From Candidatus Mcinerneyibacteriota bacterium (GTDB taxonomy: Bacteria; AUK180; JAQVHJ01), in assembly GCA_030630935.1 (NCBI GenBank), contig DAOVMD010000010.1:1-18857 (forward strand): DNA of 18,857 nt. The letters are read 5' to 3'. Within the stretch, counting starts at the first letter, position 1; each line of letters begins with the position of its first letter. This document shows, in pieces, positions 8,367 to 18,857 of the stretch. Under the pieces are notes generated by a model. That model was not told where the DNA came from. It did not search any database and was given only the letters and a program-made list of their open reading frames with translations. Position numbers and translations under genes: made by a program.

Positions 8367-10871
8367 CTATTTCACAACGACAAGTTTCCCGGTTTTCTTA
8401 ATTCCGGAATTTGACTCGATGACATAGATATATACTCCTGATGCAACTTTTTTATTATCATCAGTCTTACCTTTCCAGAGTAAATATCCACCATCAGCAA
8501 AAATTTTATATTCAGAGATATAAGATGAATCTTCATTACTTTTAAAAATTATACCTTTATTTAATGTTGCGATCTCCCTACCCCGGGCATTAAATATCCT
8601 GCAAGATTTTACGCCATCAGGAAGTTTATCTAAGATTACCCCGCCTTCCCAGGACCCGGTTTCGGGATTACCGTCAGTTGGTTTAAACGGATTGGGGTAA
8701 CTCCTTACCGATTCAAGGTCACCATATAATAAGTTGTTAAGAGATTTACCTGAGAAGAATTTTATCTCACCATCTTGAGGAATTACTACTGAAATTCTTT
8801 CTGCAACACTATCGAGTCTTCCATTATACTCGCCGGAATATCCGCTTTGTTCGGAGTTCCAGCTATAAATACCCATTGCTTTAGATTTATTATTTTTATA
8901 TCCGATAAAGTCATTCCCGACTTTATCACGGTCTTCAATTTTTGAAAGGTCATACCATGAGACGAGCATAGTTTTTAAATCAGGAGAAATCCCGCCATAG
9001 ACTCTCAGGTTATTGGGATTTCCTGAGTATTTTGCTGTAAGGAAATCATCCCCTGTATTTATACTTATCCTTTTACTCCAGCCGTCAGGATTCGAGAATT
9101 CAATCTCTGCATAGTTCCCGGGTCCTGCATTAATGACAGTTACAGAGTAATCTCTGTTATCATTATCATCGCAGAAAATTCCCGGATGTCCACCAGTATC
9201 TCCATCGCCTTCACCACCCCAATTGGACATTGAATTTCCAACTATCACCTCACCGTACTTATTAAAAACCCACATTGCTCTTCCGCCTTTTCTCTCAAAT
9301 ATTGCACAGACTTGATCATTGAAAATTGCCCATTCGAAATAACCACCCCCGTCAAAATCATCAATTTCTATCCCTGAATAATTTGGAAGGTTATCAAGCC
9401 ATTTTGCTCCATACGCAAAGCACCCGGCATACCTAGTATGGTTAGACAGGTTCTTCTGCCAATACGCAATCTCATCTCCTGTCCCGAGATGCCATGCAGT
9501 TTCATAAAGCATTCCCATTAAAGTAATCCAGCCAACCTGGTTAATGGAATTACCGAAATCCCCGGGATATTTTGGGGATGAATTTAAAGCTTTTATTATT
9601 CCTGCAGTTTTTGATCCGGGTTGAAGGTAATCATAATCTGCATTGGAAATGTCAATCTTACTATTCTCTCTTAATTTTGTAACTCCGAATTTCCAAAGGT
9701 CTTCAAAATCACCAATCACACTATTATTATTAAAATCAGTAACCGGGTCTTCAGTACCCTGGCATTCCCAGGACTCTGTCGTTACAAAAGATTCTTTACC
9801 CCAACCTTGAATAGAATCGTCATACCAGTAATCATAATTACCACCGGTCCAAGATTGGAGATATGAATATGCAGTATATGGTATATCAATTGTTGGTGCG
9901 GTCTTATTAACACCCCACCACTCAACCGCTTCAGAAACATGGATTGCCATAACCCAACCCTGATTTGAAATCCAATTAATATTACTGTCGTAAGCAGCGG
10001 TATTATCCCACCAGTCTGCAACACCAGCGGCTTTCTCCCAATCATCACCGTAAATACTTACCAGATCCTGGTTGGAATGGGAATTTAGCCATTGTAGATG
10101 ATCATAGAACCAACCCCCGGGATTCTGGACTCCGGAAGTATTAAGCATATTCTCATTTGCAACATAATCAATGAAGGCGACAAAAACCTGCTCACCATTA
10201 CCATTCCACATCTGATGAATCTGCTGATATAATGTCCCGGGCATATACCAATCGTGAGCTGTGTTCCCGTCAAGAACAACAGTTGGTGCACGCCAGCCAT
10301 TAATTGATTCATACCCATAAGTACATGCAAAATCATGGAGCAGCCAATTCTTCCACGTCCTTTCAGGAACCCAACAAACTTTTGAACGGTTAGTGTTATT
10401 CCCATTCGCAGTCCCAACAGGATTAATAAGGTTGGTCATTATTTCCTTGAAATATTGTAATGCGAAAATATTCATATCCTCATCAGCATACGGCATTATA
10501 TGTTCCGCATAAGCTCCACCGACAATCTCAATCTGATAGGAGTTAGCCATACCATGAATATTATATTGGTCATTACCCTGAAGCATATAATCATCATCTT
10601 CGCCCCAAGCATACGATTGGGCTAACGTACCTGAAATATGTAAGTCAACTGCAACATTATTATAAACATGAGAATCTATCGTTGCCCAAAATCCAGGACG
10701 GGCATCATGACGACCTGCAAGGTCACCAGAACTCATGTCTCCACCCTGACGGTTACCGTGCCAGGTAATATTCTGATTACCGTGATGGACAAAAGCAACT
10801 TTAGCAGTAGAAAAAACAAGGGCGGGTAATAATAAGATTAATGATAAAATAATAACCTTGAAGTTTTTCAT
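8367..10871 (-). CDS. Secreted GH57-type glycoside hydrolase with FlgD-like C-terminal domain
   Basis: An 834-residue exported protein with a signal peptide at about 1-22. All four GH57 family blocks can be traced: an HH-GNQ motif at 29-33 (like HxHQP); LHISGTL at 77-83; EIVGGAYAEHIMP at 115-127; CWVPERTW at 166-173, placing E170 where the GH57 nucleophile lies; and YGDDWEKAAG at 274-283, where the acid Asp lies (D276 or D277). Known GH57 enzymes act on alpha-glucans; the substrate here is not predictable. The last ~117 residues (from about 718) form a FlgD-like/T9SS-type domain starting SYPNPFKP and ending in a KLVVVK strand, typical of surface or secreted proteins. It is transcribed alone, from a promoter shared almost word for word with the 11510-13105 gene. 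Confidence 0.82.
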   Translation of the reverse strand: MKNFKVIILSLILLLPALVFSTAKVAFVHHGNQNITWHGNRQGGDMSSGDLAGRHDARPGFWATIDSHVYNNVAVDLHISGTLAQSYAWGEDDDYMLQGNDQYNIHGMANSYQIEIVGGAYAEHIMPYADEDMNIFALQYFKEIMTNLINPVGTANGNNTNRSKVCWVPERTWKNWLLHDFACTYGYESINGWRAPTVVLDGNTAHDWYMPGTLYQQIHQMWNGNGEQVFVAFIDYVANENMLNTSGVQNPGGWFYDHLQWLNSHSNQDLVSIYGDDWEKAAGVADWWDNTAAYDSNINWISNQGWVMAIHVSEAVEWWGVNKTAPTIDIPYTAYSYLQSWTGGNYDYWYDDSIQGWGKESFVTTESWECQGTEDPVTDFNNNSVIGDFEDLWKFGVTKLRENSKIDISNADYDYLQPGSKTAGIIKALNSSPKYPGDFGNSINQVGWITLMGMLYETAWHLGTGDEIAYWQKNLSNHTRYAGCFAYGAKWLDNLPNYSGIEIDDFDGGGYFEWAIFNDQVCAIFERKGGRAMWVFNKYGEVIVGNSMSNWGGEGDGDTGGHPGIFCDDNDNRDYSVTVINAGPGNYAEIEFSNPDGWSKRISINTGDDFLTAKYSGNPNNLRVYGGISPDLKTMLVSWYDLSKIEDRDKVGNDFIGYKNNKSKAMGIYSWNSEQSGYSGEYNGRLDSVAERISVVIPQDGEIKFFSGKSLNNLLYGDLESVRSYPNPFKPTDGNPETGSWEGGVILDKLPDGVKSCRIFNARGREIATLNKGIIFKSNEDSSYISEYKIFADGGYLLWKGKTDDNKKVASGVYIYVIESNSGIKKTGKLVVVK

Positions 10872-10955: not shown

Positions 10956-11509
10956 TCGCTCTGCAAGTAAAGAGTTGAATGCATGCTTCGCATGCGTTCA
11001 AGTGTTCAAATGTTCAAATGCTATTGTAGAGATGTACAAATGCACATCTCGGTGAAATTATTTAAAAACAAAACCACAGATATTTCATTGCTTTGGTTTA
11101 GAGCAATAGTTTTTAACAGAGATTTGAAGCGGAGATTCAGGAAACATGATAATATGGGATAAAGAAAAGAATAGATAAATTCCTGTTCAATCTTAAGTAA
11201 GTAAATTATTTCTTTAGCCATTGTTCTATTCTTTTTAACAATCCCATTTATCATGTTATCTCTGTTAAAAATACATTCTTTTCGGGCTAGGAGTTTACCC
11301 CGAATTTACTTCGGGGCGCTTGCGTGGCTAAAAAATAGGCGTTTTATATTAAGTATCTGCAGCTCTAAACAAGTATATTGCAATCTATAATATAGCGGTG
11401 TGTTCAGTGTGTTCAGTGGTTAAAAAAGCATTCTATAATAATTTTAAGCATAAACAAAGGGTCTCAAAGACCCCATAAGTAAAGGGAGTTTACCCCCTTC
11501 TTTGAATAA
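10956..11509. repeat. Gene-free repeat region
   Basis: No supported gene. Contents: a GCATGC-TTC-GCATGC hairpin at 10981-10995 followed by a TTCAAATG/TTCAAGTG array (the inverse of the TTGAAC array elsewhere); a GAGATGT/ACATCTC hairpin at 11029-11050; a long imperfect inverted repeat at 11113-11271; a CCCCGAA/TTCGGGG hairpin at 11298-11316; and a partial ATGAACAATG-family module on the minus strand at 11361-11397. A 77-codon minus-strand frame at 11021-11254 runs across one inverted-repeat arm and has no family signature, so I do not call it a gene. Confidence 0.65.
11455..11474 (-). terminator. Possible terminator of the barrel-TlpA-TonB gene
   Basis: On the minus strand, about 35 bases after the stop codon, GGGTC-TTTGA-GACCC is followed by TTTGTTTA. 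The 5-bp stem is short and the U-tract interrupted, so it is weak. A second, GU-containing stem GGGGG-TAAA-CTCCC lies between it and the gene. Confidence 0.4.
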
Positions 11510-13105
11510 TTAAATTCTAAAGGTATATGGACTGAATACATATTTTCCCTCTACAGGTTTACCATCCTTTAATGCCGGATTAAATTTCGCTTTTTGGACA
11601 GCTTTTATAACTGCATTATCGAGGATATTTCCTGCAGATTCAATAATTTTGTAATTTATGACATTCCCATTTATATCAACTGTAACCTCAATCACAACTT
11701 TTCCTTCAAGTCCCATCTGACGTGCTTTAGGAGGATACTCAGGGGTAATCTTTGAAGTTAATTTTGGTCCTCGAGTCTCTCCCTTCGGTTCTGGTATCGG
11801 CTCTGGTTTAGGAAGCGGCTGCGGTTCGGGTTCTGGCTCTGGTTCTGGTTCAAGCTTAGGTTTGGGCTTTGGTGTTGGTTCCGGTTTAGGTAGCGGCAGC
11901 GGTTCGGGTTCTGGTTCTGATTCAAGCTTAGGTTTGGGCTTTGGTGTTGGTTCCGGTTTAGGTAGCGGCAGCGGTTCTGGTTTGGGTTTGGACTCTTTTA
12001 ATAGTTTATCTATTTCCTTTTCGAGGTTGTTTAAACCGAAAGGAGAATAGCCTACAATATGGCTGGCAACTTTGCCTTCTTTATCAATAACTACTAATGC
12101 AGGAATAGCATTAATGCCATAAGCTGAATTTACTTTGTTCCCGGTATCTAATAGAGTAGGAAAATCATTTACTCCTAATTTCTTAATAAATTTATCATAA
12201 TCTTCCTTTTTCAAGTTCTCGGAATTAATAGTAAGGAAAATGAAATCATCACGGTTTTTGTACTTTTCCAGAATCGGAATCAATTCCTTCATTTCTTTTA
12301 CACAGGGTGCGCACCAGGTAGCCCAAAAATCCATTACTACAACCTTCCCCTTCAAATCAGATAATTTCCAAACCTTACCGTTAATATCAGTTAATTCAAA
12401 ATCCGGGGCGGGTTTACCTAAAAGTTCGACAGACTTTTCATCATTTGAATCGAGGGGAATAATGTCCTCTGTCATTTTAAAAAATAATGAAAATGTAAGG
12501 ATTTTAGATTTTGGTTTCAGGTCAGATGAAATATTATCTCGACCAACGTAAAATGACCTCATTAAATAATAAGGTTGGGAAACCTGTAAACTGTAGTTCC
12601 CAATATTAATTATTAATGAAGGAGAAAAACTGGTTAGGTTTCCATCTGTCTTATAAGAAGATGTATCTGTTAAGTTACTGCTTGAGAATAATTCCAATTT
12701 AGTTTTACCGCCAAGAATATCAAGACCAATAAAGATTTTTAATTTCTTGAATTGAAATAAACGATAATAGATTCCTACATATAAATGGGGAAATTGCCTT
12801 TTTAATTTTATCCCTGAATTTAAACCATCTACTTCTTCACTTATGAACATTGATTCTTCAATTAGAAAAAGGGGCAGTCCAAAGCGTAAGTAGAACTTTT
12901 TAATCTCAAAACTTAATGAGAAGAAGGAAAAAACATTCGCAGATTGCATATTATATGTGTAGTCATCAAGGGTTTTTAACCTTAAATCAAAGTCACCTTC
13001 TATAATTATATTGTAATCATAAGAAATGTTGACACCAGATGCTTGTAAACCAAGCATAATGAATAAAATTAAAAATAAACCTGTGAATAAGTTTTTCGTT
13101 TTCAT
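11510..13105 (-). CDS. Fusion protein: predicted beta-barrel, TlpA/ResA thioredoxin domain, PE-rich linker, TonB C-terminal domain
   Basis: 531 residues. A signal peptide spans about 1-23. Residues 24-212 are a series of alternating, aromatic-ended beta strands that look like a small outer-membrane barrel (inference). Residues 228-370 are a TlpA/ResA-type thioredoxin domain: [11 protein letters not shown], the active site WATWCAPC with C265 and C268, and cis-proline P335. Residues 373-440 are a Pro/Glu/Lys linker containing a 24-residue tandem repeat. Residues 441-531 are a TonB C-terminal domain (PEYPPKAR, then [14 protein letters not shown]) about 73 percent identical to the one at the end of the 15252-16301 protein. 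TonB domains normally belong to inner-membrane proteins, so a barrel plus oxidoreductase is odd. It may have oxidoreductase activity with envelope-spanning contact; none is proven. Transcribed singly from a duplicated promoter. Confidence 0.8.
11851..11978 (-). repeat. 72-bp tandem repeat in the TonB linker
   Basis: Two in-frame units with a 72-bp period (11851-11922 and from 11923). The first 55 bases are identical between units, giving a repeated 24-residue Pro/Lys/Glu segment. The near-identity of the DNA suggests recent expansion or slippage. Confidence 0.75.
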
Positions 13106-13118
13106 AGAACTCCATATT

Positions 13119-13180
13119 TAATTAAAGTATAACAAATTTTTAGATAATTGTAAAGGGGAAAAATAAACTTTCGCTTCGCT
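13119..13180 (-). promoter_or_regulatory. Promoter block of the barrel-TlpA-TonB gene (duplicated cassette, copy 2)
   Basis: Minus strand TTTACA (13154-13149), 17-base spacer, TATACT (13131-13126), extended -10. The predicted start near 13119 gives a leader of about 14 bases with GGAG. The block is about 95 percent identical to 10894-10955 upstream of the GH57 gene, and both copies end at a TTCGCTTCGCT repeat head. Confidence 0.8.
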
Positions 13181-15226: not shown

Positions 15227-15251
15227 TTAGTATTAGGTATTGGAGGTTTTG

Positions 15252-16301
15252 ATGAAAATTTCAGGTTCTCAGAAGAACATTTTACTTATAGAAACTATCT
15301 TATTGGTTTTAGGTATAATCTTAATGCTCATTCCGATTAAACGTGATAATTCCGAAGAATATTCAAAAGAACTAACAGTAAAATTAAACTCAGCCAAATC
15401 AAAAATTGAAACGATTAAAGTTGAATCTGAATTAAGAATTATCAATTATATCTGCAAGTCATTACAAAAAAAAGTTGATAACTTAAAAATTGATCTTGAA
15501 AAATACTCTGATGACATTGAGAAGCTAAAAGAAATCGAAATAGAAATTACGAAATTAGATTCTGAAATTTCTTTTAAGAATAAAGACATCACTCGAGCAC
15601 AGGAGATTGAACAAAAGCTTCATAACATAGATAATAAAATTTCCACTTCAAAAGATATTTATAAAAAATATCTGAAGAAGAATAGAAAGTTAAGAAAACA
15701 ATTTGCTGCTATTGAGGAAAAAAATAAAAATTTATCTATCAAAGTAAAAGATACTACAGACATATCAAAACTCGAATCCTATGTAGAGGAGCTCAATAGG
15801 TTAAATGTTGAGTTTGATATTTTAAATGAAAAGCTTTCTAAAAGCAGTAAGATCCCAAAACCAGTTCCAAAGCCAACTCCAAAACCCGAGCCAAAGCCAG
15901 AACCGAAACCCGAACCCGAACCTGAACCTGAACCCGAGCCAGAGCCTGAACCTGAACCGCTGCCATTCCCAAAACCTGAACCCAAACCTGAGCCAAAGCC
16001 TGAACCGAAACCCGAGCCCAAAGGAGAAACTCGAAGACCAAAATTAACTTCAAAAACTATCCCGGAGTATCCCCGTAGAGCACGCGAGAGGGGCATTGAA
16101 GGAACAGTTATAGTTGAAGTTACAGTTGATATAAATGGAAATGTCATAGATTATAATATCATTGAATCTGCAGGAGATATACTCGATAAAGCAGTTATAA
16201 GAGTTGTTCAAAAAGCAAAATTTAATCCGGCATTAAAGGATGGTAAACCTGTAGAAAGTAAATATAAATTCAGGCCATTTAAATTTAAACTCCCTGATTA
16301 A
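15252..16301 (+). CDS. TonB-family protein with coiled coil and PE-rich linker
   Basis: 349 residues from the ATG at 15252, chosen over an in-frame TTG at 15240 because GGAGGT (15242-15247) is correctly spaced for the ATG and would lie inside a TTG-started frame. Residues 9-29 form one inner-membrane anchor. Residues 33-195 are charged, heptad-like coiled coil (rich in E/K/I/L). Residues 201-257 are a Pro-Lys/Pro-Glu linker of the periplasm-spanning type. Residues 258-349 are a TonB C-terminal domain ([32 protein letters not shown]). Known TonB proteins pass proton-motive force from ExbB/ExbD to outer-membrane receptors; no exbBD is present, and the long coiled coil is unusual. It may instead play a structural TolA-like role. 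Confidence 0.85.
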   Translation: MKISGSQKNILLIETILLVLGIILMLIPIKRDNSEEYSKELTVKLNSAKSKIETIKVESELRIINYICKSLQKKVDNLKIDLEKYSDDIEKLKEIEIEITKLDSEISFKNKDITRAQEIEQKLHNIDNKISTSKDIYKKYLKKNRKLRKQFAAIEEKNKNLSIKVKDTTDISKLESYVEELNRLNVEFDILNEKLSKSSKIPKPVPKPTPKPEPKPEPKPEPEPEPEPEPEPEPEPLPFPKPEPKPEPKPEPKPEPKGETRRPKLTSKTIPEYPRRARERGIEGTVIVEVTVDINGNVIDYNIIESAGDILDKAVIRVVQKAKFNPALKDGKPVESKYKFRPFKFKLPD

Positions 16302-17951: not shown

Positions 17952-18857
17952 TTAATATATTACAGCAATTTTAAATAATTTTTTACCATCATTTTTTGTT
18001 TCGATTATAATTAGATATATTCCAGTTGCCACTCTTTTTGCTTTTGAATTCTTACCATTCCAGGTAATTACTCCACCCTTTGTACAGCCTCCGGTATTAT
18101 ATGGATCCGGAGCAGTTATCGGGTTAGAGAAATATTTTAGATTTATATCATCGAATTCTGCAACTAAATCCCCAGTAATATTAAAGATTTTACAACTTTT
18201 AACATCCGGTGGTACCTGTTCAATCATTATTCCACCAAAAATGGTTCCGGTATTTTTATCATTATCATTGGGTCTATATGGGTTCGGATAAATTCTAACC
18301 TCACTAAAATCTGATGATTTAACTTTTTCTTTCAAGGCAAAAATTCCAAACATTGAAAAATGATCAGTATAAATTGTAATAGTATTTTGAACCGGATCAA
18401 TTTCTCCGCCTATAACTTCCCACTTATTCTCATTTTCATTCCAATACCAGATTTTTAATTCAAGTTCATTGATTCCGGGATCTCCTGTTCCGTCCACATA
18501 CCCATTATCATCAATATCATTATAATGAATTGTCATTTTTACAGGATTCTCAAAAGTTATCCCTTCGTTATCAGCATAGAACTCTCTAATTTCACCTGTC
18601 TCGATCATCCGGCCTGTTGTATCAGAAGCAGGTGGTGGTGAGGTCGGGGCGATTACACTTAATTCCACACTACCGGAGACATCATCACTTCCAATCGAGA
18701 CTTCGGTATATCCAAAATCCTTTAAAGTTTGACCAGTTGAATCAGTTTGAGAAACTGAAGTTATCGGTAAAATATTTAACCTGAAACTGCCATCGGAAAC
18801 TTTTGCGATATATGTCAACCTATCCCCGCCATAAGGAGCCCACATTGAAAATGCTTC
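17952..18857 (-). CDS. Partial secreted protein with FlgD-like C-terminal domain
   Basis: The gene enters from beyond the right edge, and its frame is open to base 18857; the first Met seen (18845) is internal. About 302 residues of the C-terminal part are visible. The first few (APYGGDRLTYIAKV) resemble a TolB/WD40-type blade, then comes a beta-rich segment with GYVDGTGDPGINELELKIWYW like an Ig or dockerin-like domain. The last ~110 residues form a FlgD-like/T9SS-type domain (RIYPNPYRPND, SCKIFNITGDLVAEF, VATGIYLIIIET) related to that of the GH57 protein. Function unknown; probably surface-exposed or secreted. It precedes the GWxTD gene in an operon. Confidence 0.75.
   Translation of the reverse strand, partial: EAFSMWAPYGGDRLTYIAKVSDGSFRLNILPITSVSQTDSTGQTLKDFGYTEVSIGSDDVSGSVELSVIAPTSPPPASDTTGRMIETGEIREFYADNEGITFENPVKMTIHYNDIDDNGYVDGTGDPGINELELKIWYWNENENKWEVIGGEIDPVQNTITIYTDHFSMFGIFALKEKVKSSDFSEVRIYPNPYRPNDNDKNTGTIFGGIMIEQVPPDVKSCKIFNITGDLVAEFDDINLKYFSNPITAPDPYNTGGCTKGGVITWNGKNSKAKRVATGIYLIIIETKNDGKKLFKIAVIY

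Follow-up and report, generated by a model that had tools for sequence, protein, structure and literature searches.

A TlpA-type thiol-disulfide oxidoreductase domain joined to a putative outer-membrane beta-barrel and a TonB C-terminal domain in one gene of a Candidatus Mcinerneyibacteriota bacterium

The window analysed here is a whole contig of 18,857 nucleotides (C42) from the draft genome of a Candidatus Mcinerneyibacteriota bacterium, which totals 3.16 Mb in 471 contigs and is 80% complete. An open reading frame on its reverse strand begins with ATG, contains no internal stop and encodes a fusion protein of 531 amino acids that ends in a TonB C-terminal domain (TonB_C). The features of this gene, and of the inverted neighbour with which it shares its 3' part, are as follows.

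13126 to 13154, reverse strand: promoter-like site TTTACA-17-TATACT, with TG preceding the second hexamer (consensus match only)
11510 to 13105, reverse strand: fusion gene (signal peptide, putative barrel, TlpA, PEK linker and TonB_C; 531 aa; Pfam)
13040 to 13105, reverse strand: signal peptide (residues 1-22) lacking a lipobox Cys (sequence; helix 3-22 in the AlphaFold2 model)
12467 to 13036, reverse strand: putative 8-strand outer-membrane beta-barrel, residues 24-213 (alternation z=3.0; 8-strand template z=3.7; no fold by AlphaFold2)
11990 to 12433, reverse strand: TlpA/ResA thioredoxin-like domain, residues 225-372 (Pfam; ResA in PDB, 2.9e-25; AlphaFold2 pLDDT about 77-97)
12302 to 12316, reverse strand: active site WCAPC, residues 264-268 (sequence and alignment)
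11768 to 11989, reverse strand: linker rich in Pro, Glu and Lys (residues 373-446), its DNA holding an exact direct repeat of 57 bp (sequence)
11516 to 11743, reverse strand: TonB_C domain, residues 455-530 (Pfam PF03544, 4.5e-22; tonB_Cterm TIGR01352, 3.2e-18)
11458 to 11474, reverse strand: terminator-like hairpin 3' of the stop codon (consensus match only)
15249 to 16301, forward strand: neighbour gene encoding a membrane helix, a coiled coil, a PEK linker and TonB_C (350 aa), from which the tail was probably copied (Pfam, sequence comparison)
15855 to 16287, forward strand: linker and TonB_C cassette, which forms an inverted repeat with 11518-11950 (433 nt, 76%; sequence comparison)

The domain list proposed in an earlier sequence-only reading (a signal peptide, about 190 beta-rich residues, a TlpA domain with WCAPC, a Pro/Glu/Lys linker and TonB_C) was borne out by the sequence and by Pfam. 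The signal sequence closes with a plausible cleavage site, LQA-SG, and a lipobox is absent, C265 and C268 being the sole cysteines of the protein. The fusion gene looks monocistronic, since the promoter-like site lies just upstream and the terminator-like hairpin just downstream, both being consensus matches only. A search of the window with Rfam gave no match. Two other reverse-strand genes of the window, at 8367-10871 and 17952-18857, encode large exported proteins whose sorting-like C-termini are alike (YPNPF...GVYIYVIE and GIYLIIIE) and match CHU_C weakly.

In the TlpA domain, Pfam placed AhpC-TSA at residues 230-347 (1.3e-23) and Redoxin at 230-362 (2.8e-23), NCBIfam gave a ResA-like match, and the best PDB matches of the protein were ResA-type proteins. 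Both the CxxC motif and the cis-proline are present, the latter (P335) being nearly invariant in the TlpA alignment. The whole domain, the WCxPC motif, the cis-Pro loop and export are thus common to the fusion protein and the ResA/TlpA family (PF00578/PF08534; PDB 4nmu, 1st9), whose members, unlike the fusion protein, are normally free-standing, lipoproteins or helix-anchored and carry neither a barrel nor TonB_C. A CcdA/DsbD-type protein encoded in the source genome is a candidate supplier of electrons. Cytochrome c maturation was considered as the task of the domain and is not favoured, as the 80% complete genome contained no PF01578 protein.

Residues 24-212 had been taken for a beta-barrel in the sequence-only reading. 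By eye, residues 24-213 fall into eight strands; the turns linking strands 2-3, 4-5 and 6-7 are short, whereas strands 1-2, 3-4, 5-6 and 7-8 are joined by longer loops, a pattern that resembles OmpA or OmpX. The dyad-alternation score of the region was z=3.0 against shuffles. Soluble controls taken from the window scored between -2.1 and 1.4, and the genome's own TonB-dependent receptors between -0.2 and 4.1. An 8-strand dynamic-programming template gave 57.9 (z=3.7, exceeding 60 of 60 shuffles), while the same template gave at most 44.3 (z<=0.85) on ten soluble segments and 39-56 on sixteen receptor segments of the source genome. The alternation scales and the template were made by hand once the sequence had been seen, so these scores are support and not proof.

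Structure prediction and homology searches were less favourable to a barrel. No meaningful match to residues 24-212 was found in Pfam, NCBIfam or the PDB. AlphaFold2 gave no fold for residues 23-228 alone (pLDDT 30) and, when the full-length protein was modelled with 29 other aligned sequences, left residues 24-221 unfolded (pLDDT mostly 26-45). The hairpins that the full-length model does show in this region number two (63-68/71-76 and 163-168/171-176), and both coincide with short turns predicted by eye, of which there are three, an agreement that speaks for the barrel; the isolated model contained the same two hairpins plus stray strands, all at low confidence. The modelling thus returned neither the confident barrel nor the soluble domain between which it had been expected to decide. 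A search for homologues of the region within the class (7 genomes) found none, and a search of 386 genomes gave weak hits only, the best per-genome E-value being 6e-4, or about 0.24 when corrected for 386 genomes. This best hit, which is not significant, falls in the barrel of a TonB-dependent receptor, and others do not; with such an E-value, and with hits not all in barrels, they were dropped as homologues. Covariation could not be used for this region because no homologue was found.

The lack of a predicted fold and of a family match, together with the hydrophobicity of the N-terminal helix, would suit a soluble or loosely beta-rich domain in a protein that either is periplasmic or keeps its signal helix uncleaved as an inner-membrane anchor, with TonB_C presented in the orientation usual for TonB. 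However, the template and alternation scores match those of outer-membrane barrels and exceed every soluble control, and a plausible cleavage site closes the signal sequence, so that we regard a soluble N-terminal domain as unlikely. An 8-strand outer-membrane barrel is supported for this region by scores at the level of receptor barrels, but not proven.

The tail of the protein is a recognizable TonB_C domain, most of which was modelled by AlphaFold2 at a pLDDT of about 78-88 and whose best PDB match is Vibrio TonB2. The 74-residue linker that precedes it contains 31 Pro, 15 Glu and 12 Lys and, at an estimated 0.3 nm or so per residue, could stretch about 20 nm, long enough to cross the periplasm. 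A C-terminal TonB_C and a Pro-rich linker are common to the fusion protein and to TonB energy transducers, in which the N-terminal transmembrane helix bears an SHLS-type His for the ExbB motor (PMC12204202). The three canonical TonBs of the source genome have a His inside the membrane helix, whereas residues 1-22 of the fusion protein contain no His and thus lack the ExbB-binding helix motif, and an enzyme and a putative barrel stand in its place. Neither the fusion protein nor the product of the neighbour gene has this His, and therefore neither qualifies as a motor-driven transducer; judged by its sequence, the fusion protein is not a TonB energy transducer.

Comparison of the fusion gene with the neighbour gene showed that their TonB_C DNA is 84% identical (77% at third positions), while that of the neighbour and of its ortholog in G001, the sole other genome of the family compared (72% complete), is 71.5% identical (46% at third positions). 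By the Nei-Gojobori method, the local copies differ by a dS of 0.32 and a dN of 0.13; for the neighbour against its ortholog, dS is 2.95, close to saturation, and dN is 0.17. A tree of TonB_C domains stayed unresolved, none of its branches being supported, and the dS comparison was used in its place; it indicates that local copying or conversion of the cassette took place long after the lineages of the two genomes had parted. The direction, from neighbour to fusion gene, was inferred from the G001 ortholog, which has the same linker and TonB_C on a coiled-coil protein of the same kind. In G001, this ortholog and the flanking GWxTD and 342-aa genes are conserved on one contig; the barrel-TlpA gene is not among these flanks and, the genome being 72% complete, may lie elsewhere. 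The fusion looks young. The 433-nt inverted repeat could also permit inversion of the intervening 3.9 kb.

The dN/dS ratio was 0.41 between the local copies (87 codons) and 0.06 between the neighbour and its G001 ortholog, for which dS is saturated; the former value points to relaxed or changed constraint over these 87 codons. Such a ratio, the recency of the copy (dS 0.32) and an architecture seen once are what might be expected if the tail were a neutral by-product of local copying onto a barrel-TlpA gene, as yet without a selected role. We consider this fairly improbable, because the reading frame is intact, the ratio between the copies is below 1 (though the neighbour contributes half of it) and AlphaFold2 still folds the TonB_C domain.

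A local mis-join had been raised in the sequence-only reading. An artefact of assembly or binning of this sort could have arisen through the repeated linker and TonB_C sequence, and the presence of the inverted repeat on the same contig of a fragmented and incomplete draft could lend itself to one. However, no exact match between the copies exceeds 38 bp, and the one of that length falls within TonB_C. Both the barrel/TlpA junction, which is far from any repeat, and the TlpA/linker junction are outside this match, and a repeat-driven chimera therefore explains the order of the domains poorly. The frame is intact and the promoter- and terminator-like sites are present, and we hold such an artefact to be very improbable.

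Recurrence of the architecture in related genomes, which had been proposed as a check, was not observed: in none of the other genomes searched was either the N-terminal region or the complete order of domains found. No open reading frame combining TlpA and TonB_C was among the matches listed for 60 relatives, and the fusion gene alone had both among TlpA hits from genome contigs and among 131 loci. The apparent uniqueness of the fusion is due partly to the small number of relatives available for comparison. It is a real and so far one-off recombination of known parts, and not a category of its own.

Each of its elements has a precedent. TlpA is joined to a barrel in two exported proteins of two unrelated families and two genomes (L135:1948-3899 and L136:1-1878, reverse strand), in which a signal peptide and TlpA are followed by DUF6029 (PF19494), which, on reading its sequence, we take to be an outer-membrane barrel. 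These proteins share with the fusion protein, if its putative barrel is accepted, the presence of TlpA and an outer-membrane-type barrel in one exported chain and differ in that TlpA comes first, their barrel has a greater size and belongs to a different family (PF19494 had no match in the fusion protein) and TonB_C is lacking. TonB_C occurs on an outer-membrane receptor in MxcH, whose NCBIfam model (NF038079, TonB-dependent receptor) begins with a TonB_C-like stretch, the only part matched by the fusion protein. Here a periplasmic TonB_C on an outer-membrane barrel protein, putative in the case of the fusion protein, is the common trait, whereas MxcH has a large receptor barrel with a plug, carries TonB_C ahead of the barrel and lacks TlpA; no Plug domain was matched in the fusion protein by Pfam or NCBIfam. 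OmpA has the general plan that is proposed for the fusion protein, with a small barrel at the N-terminus and a periplasmic part after it, the likeness being one of layout and not of demonstrated sequence similarity, but ends in a peptidoglycan-binding domain (PF00691, with no Pfam match in the fusion protein) where the fusion protein has TlpA and TonB_C.

The source genome encodes an outer membrane and a Ton system, with about nine TonB-dependent receptors, four ExbD proteins and the three canonical TonBs, as well as four OmpA-type peptidoglycan-binding domains. TonB_C was also found in this genome on a lipoprotein (L007:445-1158) and on an exported propeller-like repeat protein (L008:307-1743). 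Several proteins with a membrane helix and a coiled coil (L010, L012 and L013) end in a divergent TonB_C and have no motor-binding His, and two such TonB_C proteins are encoded in tandem on C124. In a MalG-type ABC permease, TonB_C is inserted in the first periplasmic loop (L009:1243-2412, G000:C450; L171:1468-2640, G001). This permease is kept in G001 with 73% identity overall and a TonB_C match of 5e-9, and in a sister family the same loop carries a different insert (L172-L174). A search of a paper library found none on TlpA-TonB or MalG-TonB fusions.

The reading that we put forward, and think just about probable, is that of an OmpA-like thiol reductase anchored in the outer membrane and provided with a TonB_C docking tail. 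The N-terminal barrel would anchor the protein in the outer membrane and station the TlpA/ResA-type dithiol reductase on the side that faces the periplasm, the barrel, the location, the direction of the redox reaction and the docking all being parts of the proposal. This layout, with the barrel in the outer membrane and TlpA and TonB_C in the periplasm, is the best reading of the arrangement that had been described as the reverse of normal topology, but it is less unusual than was claimed, because of the MxcH precedent and of the many unrelated envelope proteins of the source genome that carry TonB_C. The redox-linked envelope bridge suggested in the sequence-only reading would be a supposition beyond this layout. 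The Pro-rich linker would carry TonB_C as a docking module within reach across the periplasm, and the tail would probably dock on a peptide or domain of a partner through beta-strand addition, the mode of binding of the TonB and TolA C-terminal domains (PMC12204202).

The linker and TonB_C are a recent copy, probably derived from or converted by the inverted neighbour, which encodes an inner-membrane-anchored coiled-coil protein. Given this recent common origin, it is plausible that the fusion protein and the neighbour protein either have the same binding partner or bind each other. That both proteins pair through TonB_C, forming a passive bridge from inner to outer membrane that holds the thiol reductase at the outer membrane, is a distinctly unlikely extension of this proposal. 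The main doubts concern the barrel itself and the selected role of so young a tail.

From this arrangement it seems that the outer membrane can serve as the station of a periplasmic thiol reductase. It also presents TonB_C as a mobile docking part, used beyond energy transduction and caught soon after its copying between adjacent genes. Because most discussion of TonB_C concerns its part in TonB and TolA, of which it is the force-transmitting tip, the genome-wide pattern, in which a lipoprotein, a repeat protein and an ABC permease also carry the domain, may be of greater interest than the one gene described here.
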